This document shows positions 7,500 through 15,435 of a stretch of DNA of 64,000 bases, in pieces (position 1 is the stretch's first letter; each line of letters starts with the position of its first letter). Under the pieces are notes generated by a model. It was given only the letters and a program-made list of their open reading frames with translations, ran no database searches and was not told the DNA's origin. The stretch is from Methylocella silvestris BL2 (GTDB taxonomy: Bacteria; Pseudomonadota; Alphaproteobacteria; Rhizobiales; Beijerinckiaceae). Position numbers and translations under genes: made by a program. The stretch lies in contig NC_011666.1 of assembly GCF_000021745.1 (NCBI RefSeq), forward strand, positions 434,001-498,000, given 5' to 3'.

Positions 7500-7608
7500 T
7501 TCATCGTTCACGCAAATCGCCCCTGAAATCTGAGTTTTGTCTCTTTTGGCATGGCCGGACCATGCGTCGCGGCAAAGGCTGGAAAATGTCAATCCTCGCC
7601 CGGCGTCT

Positions 7609-8508
7609 TCATGCCGGGACGCCCTCAAGCGCGGCGAGACGGGTCGCCTCCGCAAGCAGGGCGCGCGAGAGCGGCGGCATCGGTTCGCGGCGCGGCAGCA
7701 CAAGCCCGATCGTCTGGACCTCCTTCGGCTCAACGATCGGAATCGAACGCAGCGACTGCGTCTGGTCGAGGATGTCGGCGAAGGTTTCGGGAATGATGCT
7801 CGCCCATTGGCCCGTTCTCACATGAGCAGCGAGCACCACCATCGAATTCGATTCCAGCATCGGCGCGTCGGTCGGCGCCGAGCTTGCGAGCATGCGGTCG
7901 ATGATCCGGCGGTTCTGCATGTCCGGCGTCAGCAGGCAAAGCGGGATTTTCGCCACCTCTTTCCACGTCACGGAGGCGCGATCGCCGAGCGGCTGATCGG
8001 CGGAGGTCAGCAGCCTGTATCGCTCGCGATAAAGCGGCGTCGCGCGAATGTGGCCGAGCGGTTCATTGTCGACATAGGTGAGGCCGGCGTCGATCTGCAA
8101 TCCGTCGAGCATGATCAAAATCTCGCGCGAGGTTTGCGAGAGAATTGTAAAGCGCACTTGCGGGTGCTTTTCGCGGAAGGGAACGGTGAGTTTTTGCACC
8201 ATGCCAAGCGCGGTCGGCACGACGGCAAGGGTCAAATGACCAATGAGAGATTTTTTCGGCGAGCGGATTTCCTGACGCATCGCGCGCGCGTCGGCGACGA
8301 TGCGCTTGGCCCATTCCAGCACGCGCTCGCCATCCGGCGTCAGGCCATGGAACCGCGAGCTGCGATTGACGAGCAGCACTCCGAGCGTCTCTTCCAGCTG
8401 CTTGATGCCAGCTGACAGCGTCGGCTGGGTGACGCCGCAGAATTCCGCCGCGCGGCTGAAATTACGCTCCCGCGCCAGCGCGAGCAGGAATTCCAGCTTC
8501 TCGATCAC
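7609..8508 (-). CDS. LysR-family transcriptional regulator
   Basis: A 299-residue LysR regulator with the N-terminal winged helix-turn-helix (KLEFLLALARERNFSRAAEFCGVTQPTLSAGIKQLEETLG, residues 3-42) and a substrate-binding domain from about residue 90 (LIGHLTLAVVPTALGMVQKL). Its start overlaps the stop of the upstream GH15 gene by four bases (ATGA), so it is the last gene of the ABC-GH144-GH15-LysR set. LysR regulators are often divergent from their targets; here it is co-transcribed with the presumed targets instead. The effector is unknown; a glucan-derived sugar is a guess from context. Confidence 0.93.
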   Translation of the reverse strand: MIEKLEFLLALARERNFSRAAEFCGVTQPTLSAGIKQLEETLGVLLVNRSSRFHGLTPDGERVLEWAKRIVADARAMRQEIRSPKKSLIGHLTLAVVPTALGMVQKLTVPFREKHPQVRFTILSQTSREILIMLDGLQIDAGLTYVDNEPLGHIRATPLYRERYRLLTSADQPLGDRASVTWKEVAKIPLCLLTPDMQNRRIIDRMLASSAPTDAPMLESNSMVVLAAHVRTGQWASIIPETFADILDQTQSLRSIPIVEPKEVQTIGLVLPRREPMPPLSRALLAEATRLAALEGVPA

Positions 8509-9938
8509 GGCGAGACGCCTTTGGCGGAACGAAGCGCCTTCTCCCGGCTGGCGTAGGCGCTGATGAAAGCGGCGTGGCTCCAGGCGAGATTTTTAGCCGA
8601 TGTCTGGACGCCAGTCGTTTGATCGAATTGTTCGGAGAGGTCGCCGTTCTCCGACGTGTAGGCGGCGACCGTCGTCATGAACAGATCGCCGCACCGCAGG
8701 AGCGCCTCAAAGAGATGATGACCGTCATGTTTTGAATCGAGCCCGATGCGCGCCCATTCCGAGGCGTCGTGGAGGAAACCCTTCGCCACGGCCTGCGCCG
8801 CTTTGAAATGGAATTCTGCCGCGCCGAGCGTCGAGAAAAAATAGGCGCCGCCGCTGTAGTAGCGATCGCCGTCATAGCGGCCCATTGCCGGGGCGTCTGC
8901 GCCCGGTTGTGTCGTGTTGATTGTATAGGCATCGGCGAAAAGCGCTTCGAGCCGGCCAAGCGTCGCAATCAGTCTCGAGTCGCACACGCTATGCGCGCCA
9001 GCCTCGCGCCCGGCGTGGATCACAGCGAGCACGGTCGCGATGTCGAGCTCCTTTTGCGGGCCGGAGCCCGCCGCGGCGATGCGGCTTCGTACAAAACCTT
9101 GCGGCGCGCTCCAGAAGTCGTCGAGGCCCGCGGCGATCTCCTGCGATGCGTCAAGATATGCGGTGGCGCTCTCGATTGCGCCGCGCGACTCGAGCCATAA
9201 GCCGCCCTCGCGCAACGCCTCGCATTGGACGAGCTGCGTATAATAGTGGCGCCCGAGCTCTTCCTCCCAGATATCGAAAGATGGCGCGCGCCAGCGGGCG
9301 AAGGTGAAGCCGAGATCGCGGATGATGAGCTCTTCCGCCTGCTTGAAAATGTCCGGCCCCGGGCCGACCGACTGGCAGAATCGGGCGACCGCGAGCACGC
9401 GCAGGGCCGGCCCATCATGTTGCGGCCGCGACCATTTCAGGATGTCGATCGAACCGTCGGGATCGAATCTCGGTTCGCCCAAGATATCGTCGCCTGAGAT
9501 GGCGAGAAGATCCGCCTCGGGCCGCAGAAATTGCGCGAAATGAGGCTCGACCTTCGCCCGGTAATCGCCGGCTCCCGCCAGAAATGAGCGCCCGTCGAGA
9601 CCGCACAGCGTCAGGCTGAAGCCGAGGAAATCGGAAAAATGCGCAAGGCCCTCGGGCCGCGCGATTTCCTCGCTCTCGATCAACAGCCGCAAGGCGTCAA
9701 TGATAACGGCAGAATCGCGCAGCCAGTGGAAGAAATAGTCGGGGTCCGGATCATAGGCGGCGATCACGGGCGAAGCGAGGATCGAGCCTTTCGCCGGCCG
9801 CAACAGCCGTCCAAAACCGCGCCGCTCCTTGACGAGGTCGACCCGTGAAATGGCGCTCATCATTTTCGCGGCGGAAAGCCCATATTGACGGCGCATCCAG
9901 ACATCGAGCGACGCCTGTTGTTTGAAGGGAGCGCTCAT
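8505..9938 (-). CDS. Glycoside hydrolase family 15 (glucoamylase-like), cytoplasmic
   Basis: A 477-residue GH15 (alpha/alpha)6-barrel enzyme. It shows ILASPVIAAYDPDPDYFFHWLRDSAV (residues 53-78, substrate-binding WLRD typical of GH15), FDIWEEE (general acid Glu about 225-226) and GDLSEQFD (general base Glu about 440). GH15 enzymes release glucose from the non-reducing ends of alpha-glucans. No signal peptide is visible, so it should act in the cytoplasm. The gene overlaps GH144 upstream (9935-9938) and LysR downstream (8505-8508), each by four bases. An alpha-glucan hydrolase beside beta-glucan enzymes is unusual, and the actual substrate could differ. Confidence 0.9.
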   Translation of the reverse strand: MSAPFKQQASLDVWMRRQYGLSAAKMMSAISRVDLVKERRGFGRLLRPAKGSILASPVIAAYDPDPDYFFHWLRDSAVIIDALRLLIESEEIARPEGLAHFSDFLGFSLTLCGLDGRSFLAGAGDYRAKVEPHFAQFLRPEADLLAISGDDILGEPRFDPDGSIDILKWSRPQHDGPALRVLAVARFCQSVGPGPDIFKQAEELIIRDLGFTFARWRAPSFDIWEEELGRHYYTQLVQCEALREGGLWLESRGAIESATAYLDASQEIAAGLDDFWSAPQGFVRSRIAAAGSGPQKELDIATVLAVIHAGREAGAHSVCDSRLIATLGRLEALFADAYTINTTQPGADAPAMGRYDGDRYYSGGAYFFSTLGAAEFHFKAAQAVAKGFLHDASEWARIGLDSKHDGHHLFEALLRCGDLFMTTVAAYTSENGDLSEQFDQTTGVQTSAKNLAWSHAAFISAYASREKALRSAKGVSP

Positions 9939-11197
9939 GTCTGGCCGCCAAGATGCGGCGAGCGAAAGCGCAGACGCGTCAGGCCACGCCGGACGTCGGG
10001 ATCAGACATGAACAGGCGCCACAACAATCCTGAGCGGTAGTTCTCGATCATGGCGACGATCGGCCCCTGATCGATCGCAAGATAGGTCTCCGCCCGCCAT
10101 CCATGCGTTTGGCTGAAGGCGTCGACGAAGCCGAATCGTCCGAAAATCCAGTCGCCCAGATCGTCGTGAAAATGGCGCAGCGCGCGCATCGCCTCGGCTG
10201 GCGCATAGGGAAAACTGGAGAGGGCGGCGGTTGGCGAGATGACGCCATTATCAAGGTCCGGCGCATGGGCCATATAGCCGGCGGGATCGTCGCTCGCGGT
10301 CAATCCCCAGCTCGATGGGCCATAGCCTTTGAAGCCGCCGGGGTTCAGCACGCAATGCGTATGGTTTATCACCGTATGTTGCACGTTCTGGCGCCAGTAG
10401 TCGGCGTAGTCGTCGACGAGGCCGCGCGGATCGAGCCCGCAGAAGGAGTAATGCGCGAAGAACAGCGGGCCGCCGTAATCGGGGCCCAAGGGCAGCTCCA
10501 GCCCGTAGTAGGTCCTGCCGTTGAGAAAGGTGCGGCTCTGCGCATAGCCGGCGTGATAGACGATCGGGTCGATGCAATAGCGCGGCGCGGCCGCCGCCAG
10601 GACATAGGCAATCAGGCATTCATTCCAGCCGCGGACCTCGACGTCGATGCTGAAGCCGTTGTTTGGGCTCCAGTGCCAGGTCAGCGCCTTGCGGCCGTCG
10701 CGCGCATGCCAGCTCCACTCCACCTCGCTCCACAGCCAGGTGATATGATTGCGCAGCTCCTGCTCGACGCCGTCGGCGTTAAAATAGGCCCGCGCGCACA
10801 AAAGTCCCTGAAACAGCAGCGCCGTCTCGACAAGATCCCCGCCATCGTCTTTGCGGCCGAAAGGGATGGTCGCGCCTGTGCGTCCGTTCATGAAATGGGG
10901 AAAGAGACCGTGGTAGGAGGGCGTGCGCTCGAGAAAGCGGACCATCGCCATGAGCCTTTCAGCGGCAGCCTCGCGCGTGACAAAGCCTCGCGCCGCCGCG
11001 ACGACGATGGCGAGAACGCCAAAGCCGCTGCCGCCGATCGAAACGAGATCGTCTTCAGCGTCGCTCTCCAGCCCGGTGCGGTCGCGCGCGAGGAAGCTGA
11101 CAGGATGCGCCCCGTCCCAGAAAAAGAGGAAGCTTTTGCGCTGAACGAGATCTAGCAGCGCCTCATCGGAGCGTTGCGGAGGTTTGGCGTTGGTCAT
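9935..11197 (-). CDS. Glucoamylase-domain protein (PF10091), GH144-like beta-1,2-glucanase
   Basis: A 420-residue protein that is almost entirely a PF10091 glycoamylase domain. It carries LLDLVQRKSFLFFWDGAHP, SIGGSGFGVLAIVVAA, WHWSPNNGFSIDVEVRGWNECLIAYVLA, GGPLFFAHYSFCGLDPRGL and PYAPAEAMRALRHF. This domain defines GH144 endo-beta-1,2-glucanases and also occurs inside cyclic beta-1,2-glucan synthases. Stand-alone size and the GH3 beta-glucosidase next door favour hydrolysis of beta-1,2-glucan to sophoro-oligosaccharides. No signal peptide is visible, unlike secreted GH144 enzymes, so the substrate would have to be in the cytoplasm. The next gene (GH15) starts inside its last four bases. Confidence 0.85.
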   Translation of the reverse strand: MTNAKPPQRSDEALLDLVQRKSFLFFWDGAHPVSFLARDRTGLESDAEDDLVSIGGSGFGVLAIVVAAARGFVTREAAAERLMAMVRFLERTPSYHGLFPHFMNGRTGATIPFGRKDDGGDLVETALLFQGLLCARAYFNADGVEQELRNHITWLWSEVEWSWHARDGRKALTWHWSPNNGFSIDVEVRGWNECLIAYVLAAAAPRYCIDPIVYHAGYAQSRTFLNGRTYYGLELPLGPDYGGPLFFAHYSFCGLDPRGLVDDYADYWRQNVQHTVINHTHCVLNPGGFKGYGPSSWGLTASDDPAGYMAHAPDLDNGVISPTAALSSFPYAPAEAMRALRHFHDDLGDWIFGRFGFVDAFSQTHGWRAETYLAIDQGPIVAMIENYRSGLLWRLFMSDPDVRRGLTRLRFRSPHLGGQT

Positions 11198-11235: not shown

Positions 11236-13068
11236 CTAGCCAGGATAACTGGCGTTCGTCGATGTTGCGACTGGGGCGCCGGGAGAGGCTGCGATCGCCG
11301 GCGCCTCGGGGCGGGGCGCAAGGCGCTCGCCGCCGGGATCGTCGATGAGATGGAGCACGCGCGAGAAGAAGCCGTTTTGCGTGTCTGGACGCCCGACGTT
11401 AAGCACCGTCGCGCCCGCAAGTTCGAGCGTGAAAATGTCGAGCACGATCGCGCGGGTTTCCTCGTCGAGCGCGTCGAGCGCCTCGTTGATCAGGATCCAG
11501 CGCGGCTTGTGCAGCAGCAGCCGGGCGAAATGCAGGCTTTGCTGCTCATCGCCGCCAAGCTCGCGATCCCAACGTCTCAGACTATCGAGCCCGGGCTTCA
11601 AATGAGAGAGACCAATGCGGTCGAGCGCTTCGGCGAACGCCGCTTCAGGGAAGTTCGAGACCGGCGCCGGATAGGCCAGCGCCGTGCGGAGCGATCCCGG
11701 CGGCAGATAGGGCCGGCTCGACATGAACATCATCGAAGCCGGCTCCGGCACGCTGATGCGCCCCGAGCCCCAAGGCCAGAGGCCGGCGATGGCGCTGAAG
11801 AAATTGCTCCGGCCGGCGCTGGACCGCGCGATAATCAGGATGCGCTCGCCGGGCTTGATCGTCACATGGCGCTCGCTGAGCCGCGTGCAGGTCGAAGCCG
11901 AGGACACCCTTAAATCGTCGAACTGGATCATGTCGGCTTCATTGACGACCCGCTCGATGCGGCCGCTCTTGTCGCCAAGACTGTCGAGTTCGATCAGCGC
12001 GCGCCGGAACATCGAGATCCGGATCATCGTCGCCCGCCAGTCGGCGATCACGCTGAAATTGTCGACGAACCAGCGCAGCGCCAGCTGGACCTGATTGAAC
12101 GCGCCGACGACCATCATCAATCCGCCGAGCGACAAATCTCCCGAAAAGAACCCAGGCGCCGCGACGACGATCGGCGCGACGATGGTGAACCAGCCATAGC
12201 CGGCCGTCACCCAGGTCAGCCGCGTCACGCCCGAGACCAGGCGGCGCATGATGGAGAGCACCGGCTCAAGCTCGTTGCGCAGCCGCTGCTTCTCGTCTTC
12301 CTCGCCGCCGTAGAAAGCGATGGCGTCATTGCGTTCATTGGCGCGCACCAGCGCGAAGCGAAGATCCGCCTCGCGGCTGTAGCGCTCCGCATTGATCGCG
12401 ATCAGCGGCCGGCCGACGCGCCAGCTCATCCAGGACGCCGCGCCGGAATAAAGCAGCGCCGCCCAGACCATATAGCCTGGGATGTCGGCGCGGTAGCCGA
12501 ACAGTGTCAGCGCCACGCCTTCGGACAGAACCCAAAGAACGCCGATGAAACAGATCAGGAGCAGCGTGGCCTGCAACAGGCCGACGCCAAGATCGGTTGT
12601 CAGCTCGACGAGATGACGCGCGTCCTCGTGGATACGCTGATCGGGATTGACGCCGATCTCGCCCGCATTGGCGAGGCGGAAGGCTCGTGTCGGGCCAAGC
12701 CAGAGATCGATCAGATTACGCGTCAGCCGGCTTCGCAGCTTGAGCTTGGTCATCTGGTTGAGCCAGATCTGCGCAACGTTCAGGATCAGAAGGCCGCCCG
12801 CGATGAGCGCGAAATTCCACAGCTGGCGCAGGAATTCCTCCATGTCCTTGCGTGCAAGGGCGTCATAGAAGGGATGATTCCAGGCGTTGAGCTTGATCTG
12901 GCCGAAAGCGGTCGCCCCAACCACGGCGCAGAGCGCGAAGGCGAGCAGCAGAAACTGGTTGCGTTCGGGCGCGGCCATCAGCGAGCGGGCCATGCCGAGC
13001 AGCTGCCTGGCGAAACCCTCGTCGCGGAAGCTGGACTCCCCCTCGTTACGGTCTTCTTGGCTCATCAA
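11236..13068 (-). CDS. SbmA/BacA-like ABC permease-ATPase fusion with degenerate ATPase motifs
   Basis: A 610-residue half-transporter: an ABC_membrane_2-type domain (about residues 35-330, six hydrophobic segments such as FLLLAFALCAVVGATAFGQI) fused to a nucleotide-binding domain from about 385. Relatives include YddA and the Rhizobium BacA-related peptide or long-chain fatty acid transporters. The frame is intact, but all ATPase motifs are altered. Walker A reads ARSSAGRS (Lys to Arg, first Gly to Ala), the Q-loop MSSRPYL (Gln to Ser), the signature LGGDEQQ in place of LSxGEQQ, Walker B ILINEA (Asp to Asn), and the H-loop NVGRP (His to Arg). It probably cannot hydrolyse ATP normally. It is the first gene of the glucan operon, 38 bases before GH144. 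Confidence 0.88.
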   Translation of the reverse strand: MMSQEDRNEGESSFRDEGFARQLLGMARSLMAAPERNQFLLLAFALCAVVGATAFGQIKLNAWNHPFYDALARKDMEEFLRQLWNFALIAGGLLILNVAQIWLNQMTKLKLRSRLTRNLIDLWLGPTRAFRLANAGEIGVNPDQRIHEDARHLVELTTDLGVGLLQATLLLICFIGVLWVLSEGVALTLFGYRADIPGYMVWAALLYSGAASWMSWRVGRPLIAINAERYSREADLRFALVRANERNDAIAFYGGEEDEKQRLRNELEPVLSIMRRLVSGVTRLTWVTAGYGWFTIVAPIVVAAPGFFSGDLSLGGLMMVVGAFNQVQLALRWFVDNFSVIADWRATMIRISMFRRALIELDSLGDKSGRIERVVNEADMIQFDDLRVSSASTCTRLSERHVTIKPGERILIIARSSAGRSNFFSAIAGLWPWGSGRISVPEPASMMFMSSRPYLPPGSLRTALAYPAPVSNFPEAAFAEALDRIGLSHLKPGLDSLRRWDRELGGDEQQSLHFARLLLHKPRWILINEALDALDEETRAIVLDIFTLELAGATVLNVGRPDTQNGFFSRVLHLIDDPGGERLAPRPEAPAIAASPGAPVATSTNASYPG

Positions 13069-13293
13069 ACCCGGGCGCCGCCTGTCACTGATGCTTCGTT
13101 CGATATATTAAGCGATTCGAAATAGTCACGCGCAGGTTCCGAAATCCCGCCGTGCGCCCGCGCACGGTAAATCGTTTCCCAAACCCTTTCGCGTCTATTT
13201 TTCCGGTCGATTGAGCGGTCCAGCTTGGCCGCGACCGGATGAGGGCGGCTGACCGTGGCATTGTTCAGGCGGCGGACGCAGAGGAGGAAGGAC

Positions 13294-15435
13294 GTGGCGC
13301 TCGATCTCAAGACACTTCTCGCCGACATGACGCTGGAGGAAAAAATCGGCCAGCTCACCATGACCGCCGGAAGCTATGCGGTCACCGGGCCGATCGTTGG
13401 CGGCGACGTTGAGGCCGCAATTCGCGCCGGGCGCATCGGCAGCCTGCTCAATCTTTGGGGCGCAACGGAAATCGCCGCTATTCAAAAGATTGCGATGGAG
13501 GAGTCGCGTCTCGGCATTCCGCTGATCGTCGGCTTCGACGTTCTGCACGGCCATCGCATGATCTTTCCCCTTCCGCTCGCGGAAGCCTGCGCCTTCGATC
13601 CAGCGCTCTGGCGCGCGACCGCGCGGGCCGCGGCGCGGGAGGCGGCCGCCGATGGCGTCTCCATGGTCTTTGCGCCGATGCTCGACGTCGCGCGCGATCC
13701 GCGCTGGGGCCGGATTGCCGAGGGCGCCGGCGAAGACCCCTTCGTCACATGCGAATTCGCCAAGGCCAAGATCGCCGGTTTTCAAGGCGAGGATCTCGCG
13801 GCTCCGGCGGCCGTCGCCGCCGTCGCCAAGCATTTTTGCGCCTATGGCGCCGCAGAGGGAGGCCGCGACTACGCCTCCGCGGATGTGTCCGAGCGCGCTT
13901 TGCACGAAGTCTACCTGCCGCCTTTCGCCGCGGCGATTGAGGCCGGCTGCGCAGCCATCATGCCGGCCTTCATGGATCTCGCCGGCGTCCCCATGACCGC
14001 GCATCAACCGCTTCTGCGCGGCTGGCTGCGCGAGGCGCGGGGCTTTGAAGGCGTCATCGTCAGCGATTACAACGCGTTGGCGGAACTGATGCGCCATGGC
14101 GTCGCCGCCAATCTGATTGAGGCGGCCGCGCTGGCGCTGCGGGCGGGCGTCGACATCGACATGATGAGTTCGGCTTACGCCGACGGCCTGCCGCAGGCTT
14201 TGGCGCGGGGCCTTGTCACGGAGGAGGACATCGACGCCTGCGTGCATCGGGTGCTGGAGCTAAAGCAAAAACTTGGGCTGTTCGACGGCGTTCTTCGGGG
14301 CGCAAGGCGCCAAGGCCGCGACAGCGCGGAGCCGGCGCTTGCGCGAGACGCCGCGCGGCGTTCGATCGTTCTTTTGACCAATCATGGCGCGCTGCCGCTT
14401 TCCCCTTCTTTGCGAAAAATCGCCTTGATCGGCCCCCTGTCGGAGGCCGCGGGCGAAATGGATGGCTCATGGGCCGCCGCCGGCGACAGAAACGCCGCCG
14501 TTTCCATTCTGGACGGGCTGACGGCCGCGCTTCCTACAACCGAGATGTTTTGTGCGGCGGGCGTCGCCGTCGATTATGGGAACGCGGCCGGCATTGCTGA
14601 CGCGATGGCGCTCTGCGAGGAGGCGGAGCTGATCATTCTCTGTCTTGGCGAAAGCGCCGAAATGAGCGGGGAGGCGGCCTCGCGCGCCGATCTCGGCCTG
14701 CCCGGGCGACAAAGAGAGCTTGCCGAAGCCGCGCTCGGTCTGGGGCAGAAACTTGGGCGCCCCGTCGTCGCCCTGCTCTCGAGCGGACGTCCGCTCACGC
14801 TGCCCTGGCTTTTCGAGCGCGCCGACGCTGTGGCGGCGACCTGGTTCCTGGGCGCTGAAGCCGGCCATGCGATTGCCGATGTTTTGACTGGCCAGTTCAA
14901 TCCGGTCGGACGTCTCGCGCTAAGCTGGCCCCGCGCGGTCGGACAGATCCCGCTGTTTTATGCGGCCCGGCCGACGGGCCGGCCCTTCGCCGCCGAAGAT
15001 CATTACACGACCAAATATATCGATTGCGCCGTGGAGCCGCAGTTTCCGTTCGGCCATGGCCTGTCCTACAGCCCGTTTTCGCTCGAAGAATTCGCTGCCG
15101 GCCGGCAGAGTTTCTGCGCGCGCGACACGCTCGACTTTTCGGTCGAGGTCCACAATCTTGGACCGCTCGACGGCGAGGCGACCGTGTTCCTCTTTGCGCG
15201 CGATCTCGTCGCCTCGGTGGCGCGGCCGGTGCTCGAACTGAAGCGCTTCGGCAAAATCGCCTTGCCGGCGGGCGAGAGCGGCACATTACGCTTCGCGCTT
15301 GCGGCAAGCGAACTCGCCTTTCCCGGCGTCGATTTTCGGCCCTGCTTCGAGCCCGGCGCTTTTGAATTTTCAGTTGGATTCGATGCCGATCCAAGGCGGC
15401 ACAGGAAGCTGAGCCTGCAGGCGACGGCGCCTTAA
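13294..15435 (+). CDS. Glycoside hydrolase family 3 beta-glucosidase
   Basis: A GH3 enzyme of 713 residues. I choose the GTG at 13294 because AGGAGG (13282-13287) lies six bases before it and VALDLKTLLADMTLEEKIGQL is the family start; an upstream ATG at 13255 lacks this. The (beta/alpha)8 domain has GIPLIVGFDVLHG and the nucleophile Asp about 258 in VIVSDYNAL. Then come the alpha/beta sandwich and a C-terminal fibronectin type III-like domain (VEPQFPFGHGLSY onward). BglX-type enzymes cleave terminal beta-glucosyl units, including sophoro-oligosaccharides in some members. No signal peptide. It is divergent from the ABC-GH144-GH15 operon. Confidence 0.92.
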   Translation: MALDLKTLLADMTLEEKIGQLTMTAGSYAVTGPIVGGDVEAAIRAGRIGSLLNLWGATEIAAIQKIAMEESRLGIPLIVGFDVLHGHRMIFPLPLAEACAFDPALWRATARAAAREAAADGVSMVFAPMLDVARDPRWGRIAEGAGEDPFVTCEFAKAKIAGFQGEDLAAPAAVAAVAKHFCAYGAAEGGRDYASADVSERALHEVYLPPFAAAIEAGCAAIMPAFMDLAGVPMTAHQPLLRGWLREARGFEGVIVSDYNALAELMRHGVAANLIEAAALALRAGVDIDMMSSAYADGLPQALARGLVTEEDIDACVHRVLELKQKLGLFDGVLRGARRQGRDSAEPALARDAARRSIVLLTNHGALPLSPSLRKIALIGPLSEAAGEMDGSWAAAGDRNAAVSILDGLTAALPTTEMFCAAGVAVDYGNAAGIADAMALCEEAELIILCLGESAEMSGEAASRADLGLPGRQRELAEAALGLGQKLGRPVVALLSSGRPLTLPWLFERADAVAATWFLGAEAGHAIADVLTGQFNPVGRLALSWPRAVGQIPLFYAARPTGRPFAAEDHYTTKYIDCAVEPQFPFGHGLSYSPFSLEEFAAGRQSFCARDTLDFSVEVHNLGPLDGEATVFLFARDLVASVARPVLELKRFGKIALPAGESGTLRFALAASELAFPGVDFRPCFEPGAFEFSVGFDADPRRHRKLSLQATAP

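Follow-up and report, generated by a model that had tools for sequence, protein, structure and literature searches.

A probable pseudo-ATPase transporter of Methylocella silvestris BL2 belongs to a clade of half transporters with degenerate nucleotide-binding domains and glycosidase neighbors

The window analyzed here is a stretch of 64,000 nucleotides from Methylocella silvestris BL2 (contig NC_011666.1, positions 434,001 to 498,000). It carries a gene for a half transporter of the ATP-binding cassette (ABC) type in which five ATPase motifs are changed, and the locus raises the question of what such a protein does once its motor appears to be lost. The protein is likely an ATP-independent pseudo-ATPase transporter. 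It would be a homodimer with the BacA/Rv1819c fold that is no longer powered by ATP hydrolysis. The nucleotide-binding domain (NBD) would remain folded and docked, resting on the coupling helices in a structural or gating role. The transmembrane domain (TMD) would carry out transport, powered by the proton gradient, by substrate consumption in the cytoplasm, or by both. In Methylocella the likeliest cargo would be beta-1,2-glucan or its oligosaccharides, which would be taken up and cleaved inside the cell by the cytoplasmic products of neighboring GH144, GH15 and divergent GH3 genes. The evidence, all of it from sequence comparison, consists of motif loss throughout a clade, selection on the NBD, repeated NBD loss with decay of a coupling helix, and linkage to glycosidase genes. 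From it we infer the absence of ATPase activity, the direction of import, the cargo and the energy source.

The reading frame starts with a TTG at 13068 (610 residues) or with the adjacent ATG (609 residues). It lies on the minus strand. It has no internal stop and is full-length, as stated in the original prediction, which was made from the DNA alone. Pfam detects ABC_membrane_2 (PF06472, 133.6 bits) and SbmA_BacA (86.1 bits) in the first 360 residues. The NBD scores 24.9 bits against ABC_tran (PF00005), slightly below the cut-off of 25. An ABC_membrane_2 TMD and an ABC NBD are thus present in a single chain, as judged by Pfam and by the fold match to Rv1819c. The AlphaFold2 model shows a complete NBD (mean pLDDT 80), a coupling helix at residues 247–253 and a first long helix that begins at residue 36. 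Rv1819c is the best solved relative by sequence and by fold, being the nearest Protein Data Bank (PDB) match of the model (TM-score 0.74).

Alignment to canonical relatives, with GxxGxGKS as the reference for Walker A and LSGGEQQ for the signature, bore out the claim that all five motifs are changed (Table 1). The residue set of a functional ABC protein (Lys, Gln, signature, Asp and His) is altered at all five places. Glu529, the catalytic residue after the Walker B Asp, and the D-loop (DALD) are retained; neither had been mentioned before. Identical or close variants of the changes are present in M. silvestris TVC (96% identity), M. tundrae (75%) and genome G014 (75%), a near relative of M. 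tundrae. Because they recur in Methylocella relatives and the trait defines a clade, the changes are not due to chance. A close homologue (E-value 1e-200 or better) was found in 14 of 15 same-genus genomes searched, the window genome included; G009, of the same genus, has only a distant canonical paralogue. The window genome (4.3 Mb, one contig) additionally carries a canonical paralogue (G000:C1:878730) with 31% identity. Close homologues with normal motifs were sought, and none above 47% identity appeared in the alignments made.

Homologues were collected from named genomes (62 loci), 60 near genomes (the window genome included), 397 genomes of the order and 385 of the class. The better matches were fetched and near-identical copies were merged, which left 182 unique copies. 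Most of the NBD is present in 175 of these; seven short copies (L023, L148, L147, L066, L067, L149 at 7574–9112 and L098) were left out of the motif count. Seven residues were scored: Walker A Lys, Q-loop Gln, signature Ser and Gly, Walker B Asp and Glu, and H-loop His. Copies with all seven are called canonical, those with five or fewer degraded or dead-NBD. All seven residues are kept in 70 copies (among them the detached NBD frame belonging to the broken L149 gene), six in one copy, and five or fewer in 104 of the 175; the ratio of 104:70 is not a natural frequency, because similarity to the window protein was the criterion for collecting homologues.

The losses are uneven. Among the 104 dead copies the H-loop His survives in two, the signature Gly in three, Gln in 21, the signature Ser in 35 and Glu in 60, while the Walker A Lys is kept in 79 and the Walker B Asp in 85. 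The frequencies in 62 aligned dead-NBD rows are 3% (His), 2% (signature Gly), 27% (Gln), 32% (signature Ser), 58% (Glu), 81% (Lys) and 84% (Asp). Since His and Gly are almost gone and Lys and Asp are mostly kept, this pattern suggests that the loss of hydrolysis preceded that of nucleotide binding and that the window lineage has advanced further on this path. Positions of the fold persist in the same 62 rows (W431 98%, G436 100%, P441 100%, W500 97%, P522 98%); other canonical invariants fall (G393 61%, H568 0%). Mean conservation in dead-NBD rows is higher in the TMD (0.66) than in the NBD (0.52), the values for canonical rows being 0.57 and 0.60, respectively.

Trees were calculated from the TMD only, using representatives. 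A quick tree of 136 rows places 62 of 65 degraded rows in one clade with an SH-aLRT (approximate likelihood ratio test) support of 95; the other three are L030, L247 and a piece of the frame-broken L149. Support for the clade is 99/96 in a 69-row tree and 100/95 in an 85-row tree. The 69-row tree omitted the long-branch or gappy rows L149, L123, L023, YddA, L033, L109 (3336–5120), L030, L034 and L029 and used only part of the remaining rows. In a later 85-row tree, with proteins from Sinorhizobium meliloti pSymB and a Methylocystis plasmid added, support is 98/97 and the clade appears in 98% of 200 bootstrap trees; for this tree L118 and L242 were dropped and L247 was counted with the canonical group. 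No canonical row falls inside the clade in the trees made. The dead ATPase is a property of a clade and not of one decaying gene.

A few copies stand apart. L250 (7079–9085, genome G520) is a degenerate copy (KHSGDDS) beyond the main clade with a canonical sister, L249, in the same genome, and represents a separate loss. L030 (genome G054) is a distant copy outside the clade with partly altered motifs (KESGDGL). L148 (8433–9995, genome G070) and L149 (7574–9552, genome G285) are of the canonical-motif type, with the frame broken between or within TMD and NBD. These broken frames, both in large genomes, could reflect decay or split genes.

The SbmA/BacA rows form a long separate branch. In the approximately unbiased (AU) test, a grouping of SbmA/BacA with the dead-NBD clade is weakly rejected (p 0.039), one with the NBD-less rows strongly (p 0.00015). 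SbmA/BacA descent is rejected by the trees and AU tests, and the dead-NBD clade is a parallel lineage, since SbmA/BacA lie far away. The earlier suggestion that the protein is an intermediate towards SbmA/BacA therefore does not hold; its other proposal, that a transporter has held on to a dead domain, fits the data best.

Selection was measured as the ratio of nonsynonymous to synonymous substitution rates (dN/dS, Nei-Gojobori) in 31 dead-NBD and 18 canonical pairs. Between the window protein and its M. silvestris TVC homologue dN/dS is 0.049 for the TMD and 0.057 for the NBD; for M. tundrae the values are 0.119 and 0.180, and the highest NBD value for the window protein is 0.455 (L101). Across the dead-NBD pairs the NBD value is 0.04–0.46 in 30 of 31 and at most 0.204 in 24, compared with 0.054–0.295 in canonical pairs. 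The dead NBD is under purifying selection, in agreement with the original view that the gene is kept. It is extremely improbable that a pseudogene-like paralogue is drifting under relaxed constraint towards loss. In 29 of 31 dead-NBD pairs amino-acid identity is lower in the NBD than in the TMD, yet this is also the case in 13 of 18 canonical pairs, and although complete NBD loss occurred three times, frames are open and GH3, GH144 and GH15 genes are retained alongside. Pseudogene decay is rejected on the basis of dN/dS.

Complete loss of the NBD took place at least three times within the clade, as forced by supported branches. The NBD-less lineages are L067, a group of four (L066, L147, L270, L271) and L281 with L284. 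A single loss is rejected by an AU test with the first three NBD-less rows (p 0.025). In L067 (Rhizobiales bacterium dw_265, 1.27-Mb contig) the protein stops at the TMD-NBD linker; the locus keeps GH3, GH144 and GH15, and the ATG of GH144 overlaps the stop codon of the truncated gene. L066 (Pseudaminobacter soli) and its three companions are sister NBD-less proteins from four genomes with dN/dS of 0.18–0.32. The L271 match contained one TAG, and in L066 a second TMD fragment (residues 292–324) lies 1.5 kb downstream. L281 and L284 form the third group, on long branches. A tblastn search with the window and canonical NBDs (E-value 0.01 or better) found no NBD beside six of seven NBD-less loci.

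The docking loop changed together with these losses. Columns conserved to at least 85% in 69 NBD-bearing rows were compared for each NBD-less row. Inside residues 236–265, 4–7 of 8 such columns mismatch, against 2–8 of 66 outside. The loop with coupling helix 2 has decayed in all seven NBD-less rows (Fisher p 0.0018 to 2.6e-5); these p values are descriptive only, because the region was chosen after the columns had been viewed and the four rows of the L066 group are not independent. NBD-bearing rows show at most 3 of 8 mismatches (0.38) in 46 dead-NBD rows and at most 1 of 8 (0.12) in 23 canonical rows. The conserved columns of coupling helix 1 are kept in the NBD-less rows except for one (residue 141 in L281). 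L281 and L284 diverge around this helix at other columns, and L067 also diverges at residues 172–179. The NBD-less forms appear not to dock an NBD from elsewhere, whereas the dead NBDs seem to be still docked.

These data bear on the possibility that the dead half pairs with an active half transporter that supplies the ATPase. Such pairing of a dead and an active half is known from TAP and TM287/288. The window genome has its canonical paralogue, and further ABC_membrane_2 matches occur in 31 of the 47 dead-NBD genomes examined; in the other 16, however, the dead copy (motif state verified in all 16) is the only match. Furthermore, the tandem copies of Aestuariivirga and Taklimakanibacter are both dead, and the decayed coupling helix 2 of the NBD-less forms speaks against an NBD encoded by a separate gene. 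A heterodimer with an active half, also raised in the original prediction, is thus judged very unlikely, given the single-copy genomes and the dead tandem pairs.

A further alternative is residual use of ATP, in which the degenerate sites would still bind the nucleotide and transport would be driven or gated by this binding alone or by slow hydrolysis at the retained Glu. The frequent Walker A Lys and Walker B Asp in the clade, Glu529 of the window protein and selection on the NBD are in line with it. In the window protein, on the other hand, Lys, Gln, both signature residues (Ser and Gly), Asp and His have all been lost, the dead copies have almost no signature Gly or H-loop His left, and three lineages have no NBD at all. 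Residual ATP use is therefore regarded as improbable.

The transporter gene is the first of a tight operon, as had been noted from the DNA. A gap of 38 nt separates it from the GH144-like gene, which is followed by the GH15 gene and a LysR gene, each with a 4-nt overlap; the GH3 gene lies divergently upstream. In all 11 same-genus loci for which wide flanks were retrieved, GH3, GH144 and GH15 flank the transporter; LysR is present in 10 of the 11. At least one of the three glycosidase genes lies within 5 kb of 59 of 85 dead-NBD copies vs. 0 of 46 canonical copies, counting only copies with a flank of at least 3.5 kb; being related, the 85 copies are not independent trials. L109 (3336–5120), which keeps six of seven residues, is near glycosidase genes and falls outside the 46 by the flank rule. 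Tandem dead-NBD pairs are found within the GH3-GH144-GH15 cluster at L040, L041, L053 and L154, with both copies degraded.

The GH144-like protein aligns with CpSGL at an E-value of 3e-142, and the equivalents of D135, D139, E142, E211, F268 and Y330, which are reported to be important in CpSGL and include the catalytic and clan-defining positions, are conserved (read by eye). A strongly hydrophobic N-terminus, defined by a crude test as an 11-residue segment near the start with a Kyte-Doolittle (KD) value of 2.0 or more, was found in 0 of 52 GH144, 2 of 49 GH3 and 1 of 29 GH15 proteins. As it has no evident signal peptide, the GH144-like protein of the window is probably cytoplasmic. A cytoplasmic location of the enzymes would mean that the cell takes up the glucan. 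The PF10091 match of the operon is the only one in the window genome. Synthesis of beta-1,2-glucan by an own PF10091 enzyme of the NdvB type is thereby rejected, and M. silvestris probably scavenges this glucan rather than making it. For glucan import by the window protein itself the chances appear about even.

The GH15 protein of the window (8505–9938) resembles fungal glucoamylases, which are alpha-glucan enzymes, and is odd beside a beta-1,2-glucanase. On plasmid pGW6_1 of Methylocystis rosea (L292, 7001–11781) a transporter gene is accompanied by a glucoamylase-family gene and a GH15 gene. This plasmid is typed as mobilizable, so the cluster may travel.

The window protein shares the TMD-NBD half-transporter layout with YddA, BclA and Rv1819c. 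Unlike the window protein, E. coli YddA has intact motifs, and BclA is reported to require ATP hydrolysis (PMC12003926). The TMD fold is common to SbmA/BacA and the window protein. NBD-less members of the clade resemble SbmA/BacA in the lost NBD and the degraded coupling helix 2; E. coli SbmA has a gap at the position of this loop. The model of the NBD-less L067 has SbmA as its first PDB match (TM-score 0.72), with Rv1819c close in E-value (0.73). SbmA/BacA differ from the clade in their separate origin, and the window protein still has its NBD (residues 372–586). SLiPTs, the family of SbmA/BacA, lack an NBD, which among the proteins compared here holds only for the NBD-less relatives, and are described as having no coupling helices (PMC13316013). 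In the window protein the helix at 247–253 is modelled and its loop is conserved in NBD-bearing rows. A TM0 helix before TM1 is absent, the first long helix starting at residue 36, and the SbmA equivalog model NF008306 yields 49.8 bits (cut-off 492).

Acidic residues occupy only three of the six positions of the proton ladder of SbmA (E193, E276 and E378, corresponding to E148, E233 and D343). Proton coupling would be plausible. Positions 148, 233 and 343 are acidic in 85%, 100% and 94% of the 62 dead-NBD rows, and canonical rows also keep the first two. This conservation speaks against an energy-independent facilitator, a uniporter or gated channel in which net import would be uncoupled from protons and drawn solely by breakdown of the glucan in the cytoplasm (metabolic trapping). 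The incomplete ladder, the loss of the residues for ATP use and the rarity of signal-like N-termini in the linked enzymes would fit such a facilitator; its fold relatives, however, couple transport to ATP or protons, and many rhizobial members have no glycosidase genes. A facilitator is possible and rather doubtful.

A clade member may already have been studied. The S. meliloti pSymB protein encoded between queE and exsH falls inside the 55-row dead-NBD clade (98/97) and has the motifs IGDPRAGKT, PRAPY, LGDDEQR, IDEALETMD and IGRT. The annotation of this locus names only exsH and queC/D/E; going by the exsA-H gene order, the protein is probably ExsE. Unlike in Methylocella, no GH144, GH3 or GH15 gene is annotated alongside. 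According to Smith et al. (2025), exsE of Phyllobacterium zundukense partly restored gentamicin sensitivity in S. meliloti without bacA, with little or no complementation for NCR247 (PMC12003926). P. zundukense ExsE is not among the plasmid matches listed (best 40 of 165 and 60 of 101). If it is motif-dead like the clade members examined, transport without ATPase motifs would already be present in published data.

Several observations weigh against an ATP-independent glucan importer. The catalytic Glu is still present in the window protein, and the frequent retention of Lys (79 of 104) and Asp (85 of 104) means that ATP binding may persist in the clade. Selection on dead NBDs resembles that on canonical ones, so the domain has some job. 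Seven dead-NBD pairs exceed 0.21, among them window/L101 (0.455), L142/L146 (0.431), L168/L170 (0.355) and L100/L039 (0.992, on very few changes). The SbmA ladder E193, E203, E269, E276, E287 and E378 reads E148, T158, N226, E233, N244 and D343 in the window protein. Acidic residues at 155 and 228, near two other rungs, are already present in most canonical sisters; they predate motif loss, and completion of an SbmA-like ladder upon loss of the ATPase is unsupported. The NBD-less locus L285 has an ABC-ATPase-like match 3.4 kb downstream (E-value 8e-4), perhaps part of another importer, as it adjoins a frame resembling a substrate-binding protein. A TMD-only frame of L149 (4010–5131), outside the clade on a long branch, has a canonical NBD frame 3.8 kb away and is possibly a further NBD loss or a split system. 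No glycosidase neighbor is present in 26 of the 85 dead-NBD copies with sufficient flank. In several rhizobial loci the transporter gene lacks these neighbors, and the cargo may differ there. Of the two controls presumed to be secreted, one escaped the hydropathy test (1.85 against the threshold of 2.0). No biochemical data showing what powers transport were found for any member.

Table 1. Features of the transporter gene and its neighbors in the window.
Feature	Position	Strand	Evidence
ABC-type half transporter gene (ABC_membrane_2 / SbmA_BacA TMD and degenerate NBD)	11236–13068	minus	
TMD, residues 36–363	11980–12963	minus	Pfam PF06472/PF05992, AlphaFold2 helices
Intracellular loop 2 with coupling helix 2, residues 236–265	12274–12363	minus	Model, conservation columns
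NBD fold, residues 372–586, degenerate motifs	11311–11955	minus	Pfam, alignment, AlphaFold2 model
Walker A, ARSSAGRS (Lys420 to Arg)	11806–11829	minus	Alignment to canonical relatives
Q-loop, Gln451 to Ser (MSSRPYL)	11716–11718	minus	Alignment to canonical relatives
Signature, LGGDEQQ (Ser505 to Gly, Gly507 to Asp)	11539–11559	minus	Alignment to canonical relatives
Walker B, ILINEA (Asp528 to Asn; Glu529 kept)	11479–11496	minus	Alignment to canonical relatives
H-loop, His560 to Arg (NVGRP)	11389–11391	minus	Alignment to canonical relatives
GH144-like endo-beta-1,2-glucanase (PF10091), no evident signal peptide	9935–11197	minus	Pfam, alignment, hydropathy
GH15 family protein, no evident signal peptide	8505–9938	minus	Profile, alignment, hydropathy
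LysR-type regulator, end of operon	7609–8508	minus	Pfam
Divergent GH3 beta-glucosidase (BglX / Lin1840 type); start codon possibly internal to the frame given	13255–15435	plus	Profiles, alignment

Ettema et al. (2026) propose that a YddA-like ABC transporter gave rise to SbmA-type secondary transporters by losing NBDs and coupling helices; the intermediates named in the accessible text are split or orphan TMD and NBD genes (PMC13316013). The clade described here offers living stages: normal, dead-NBD and NBD-less. A possible order of losses is suggested, with signature Gly and H-loop His gone almost everywhere, Walker residues lost later in some lines, and the NBD and coupling helix 2 last. 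A fuller history, which may as well be right as wrong, is that in one clade of mostly Hyphomicrobiales, the order of the window, the ATPase died once and remained docked in most members seen, while on at least three occasions it was discarded and the docking loop decayed. The clade would thereby have repeated the SbmA/BacA change independently and been recruited to import beta-1,2-glucans for cytoplasmic digestion. No dead-NBD clade and no link of the family to beta-1,2-glucan came up in the literature search, whose partial coverage makes this weak evidence of novelty. The clade allows experiments on how an ABC transporter can outlive its motor, and it may show a pump switching from ATP to another energy source. 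The locus points to a beta-1,2-glucan transporter in Alphaproteobacteria, and annotations as 'ABC transporter ATP-binding protein/permease' within the clade may be wrong about energy.

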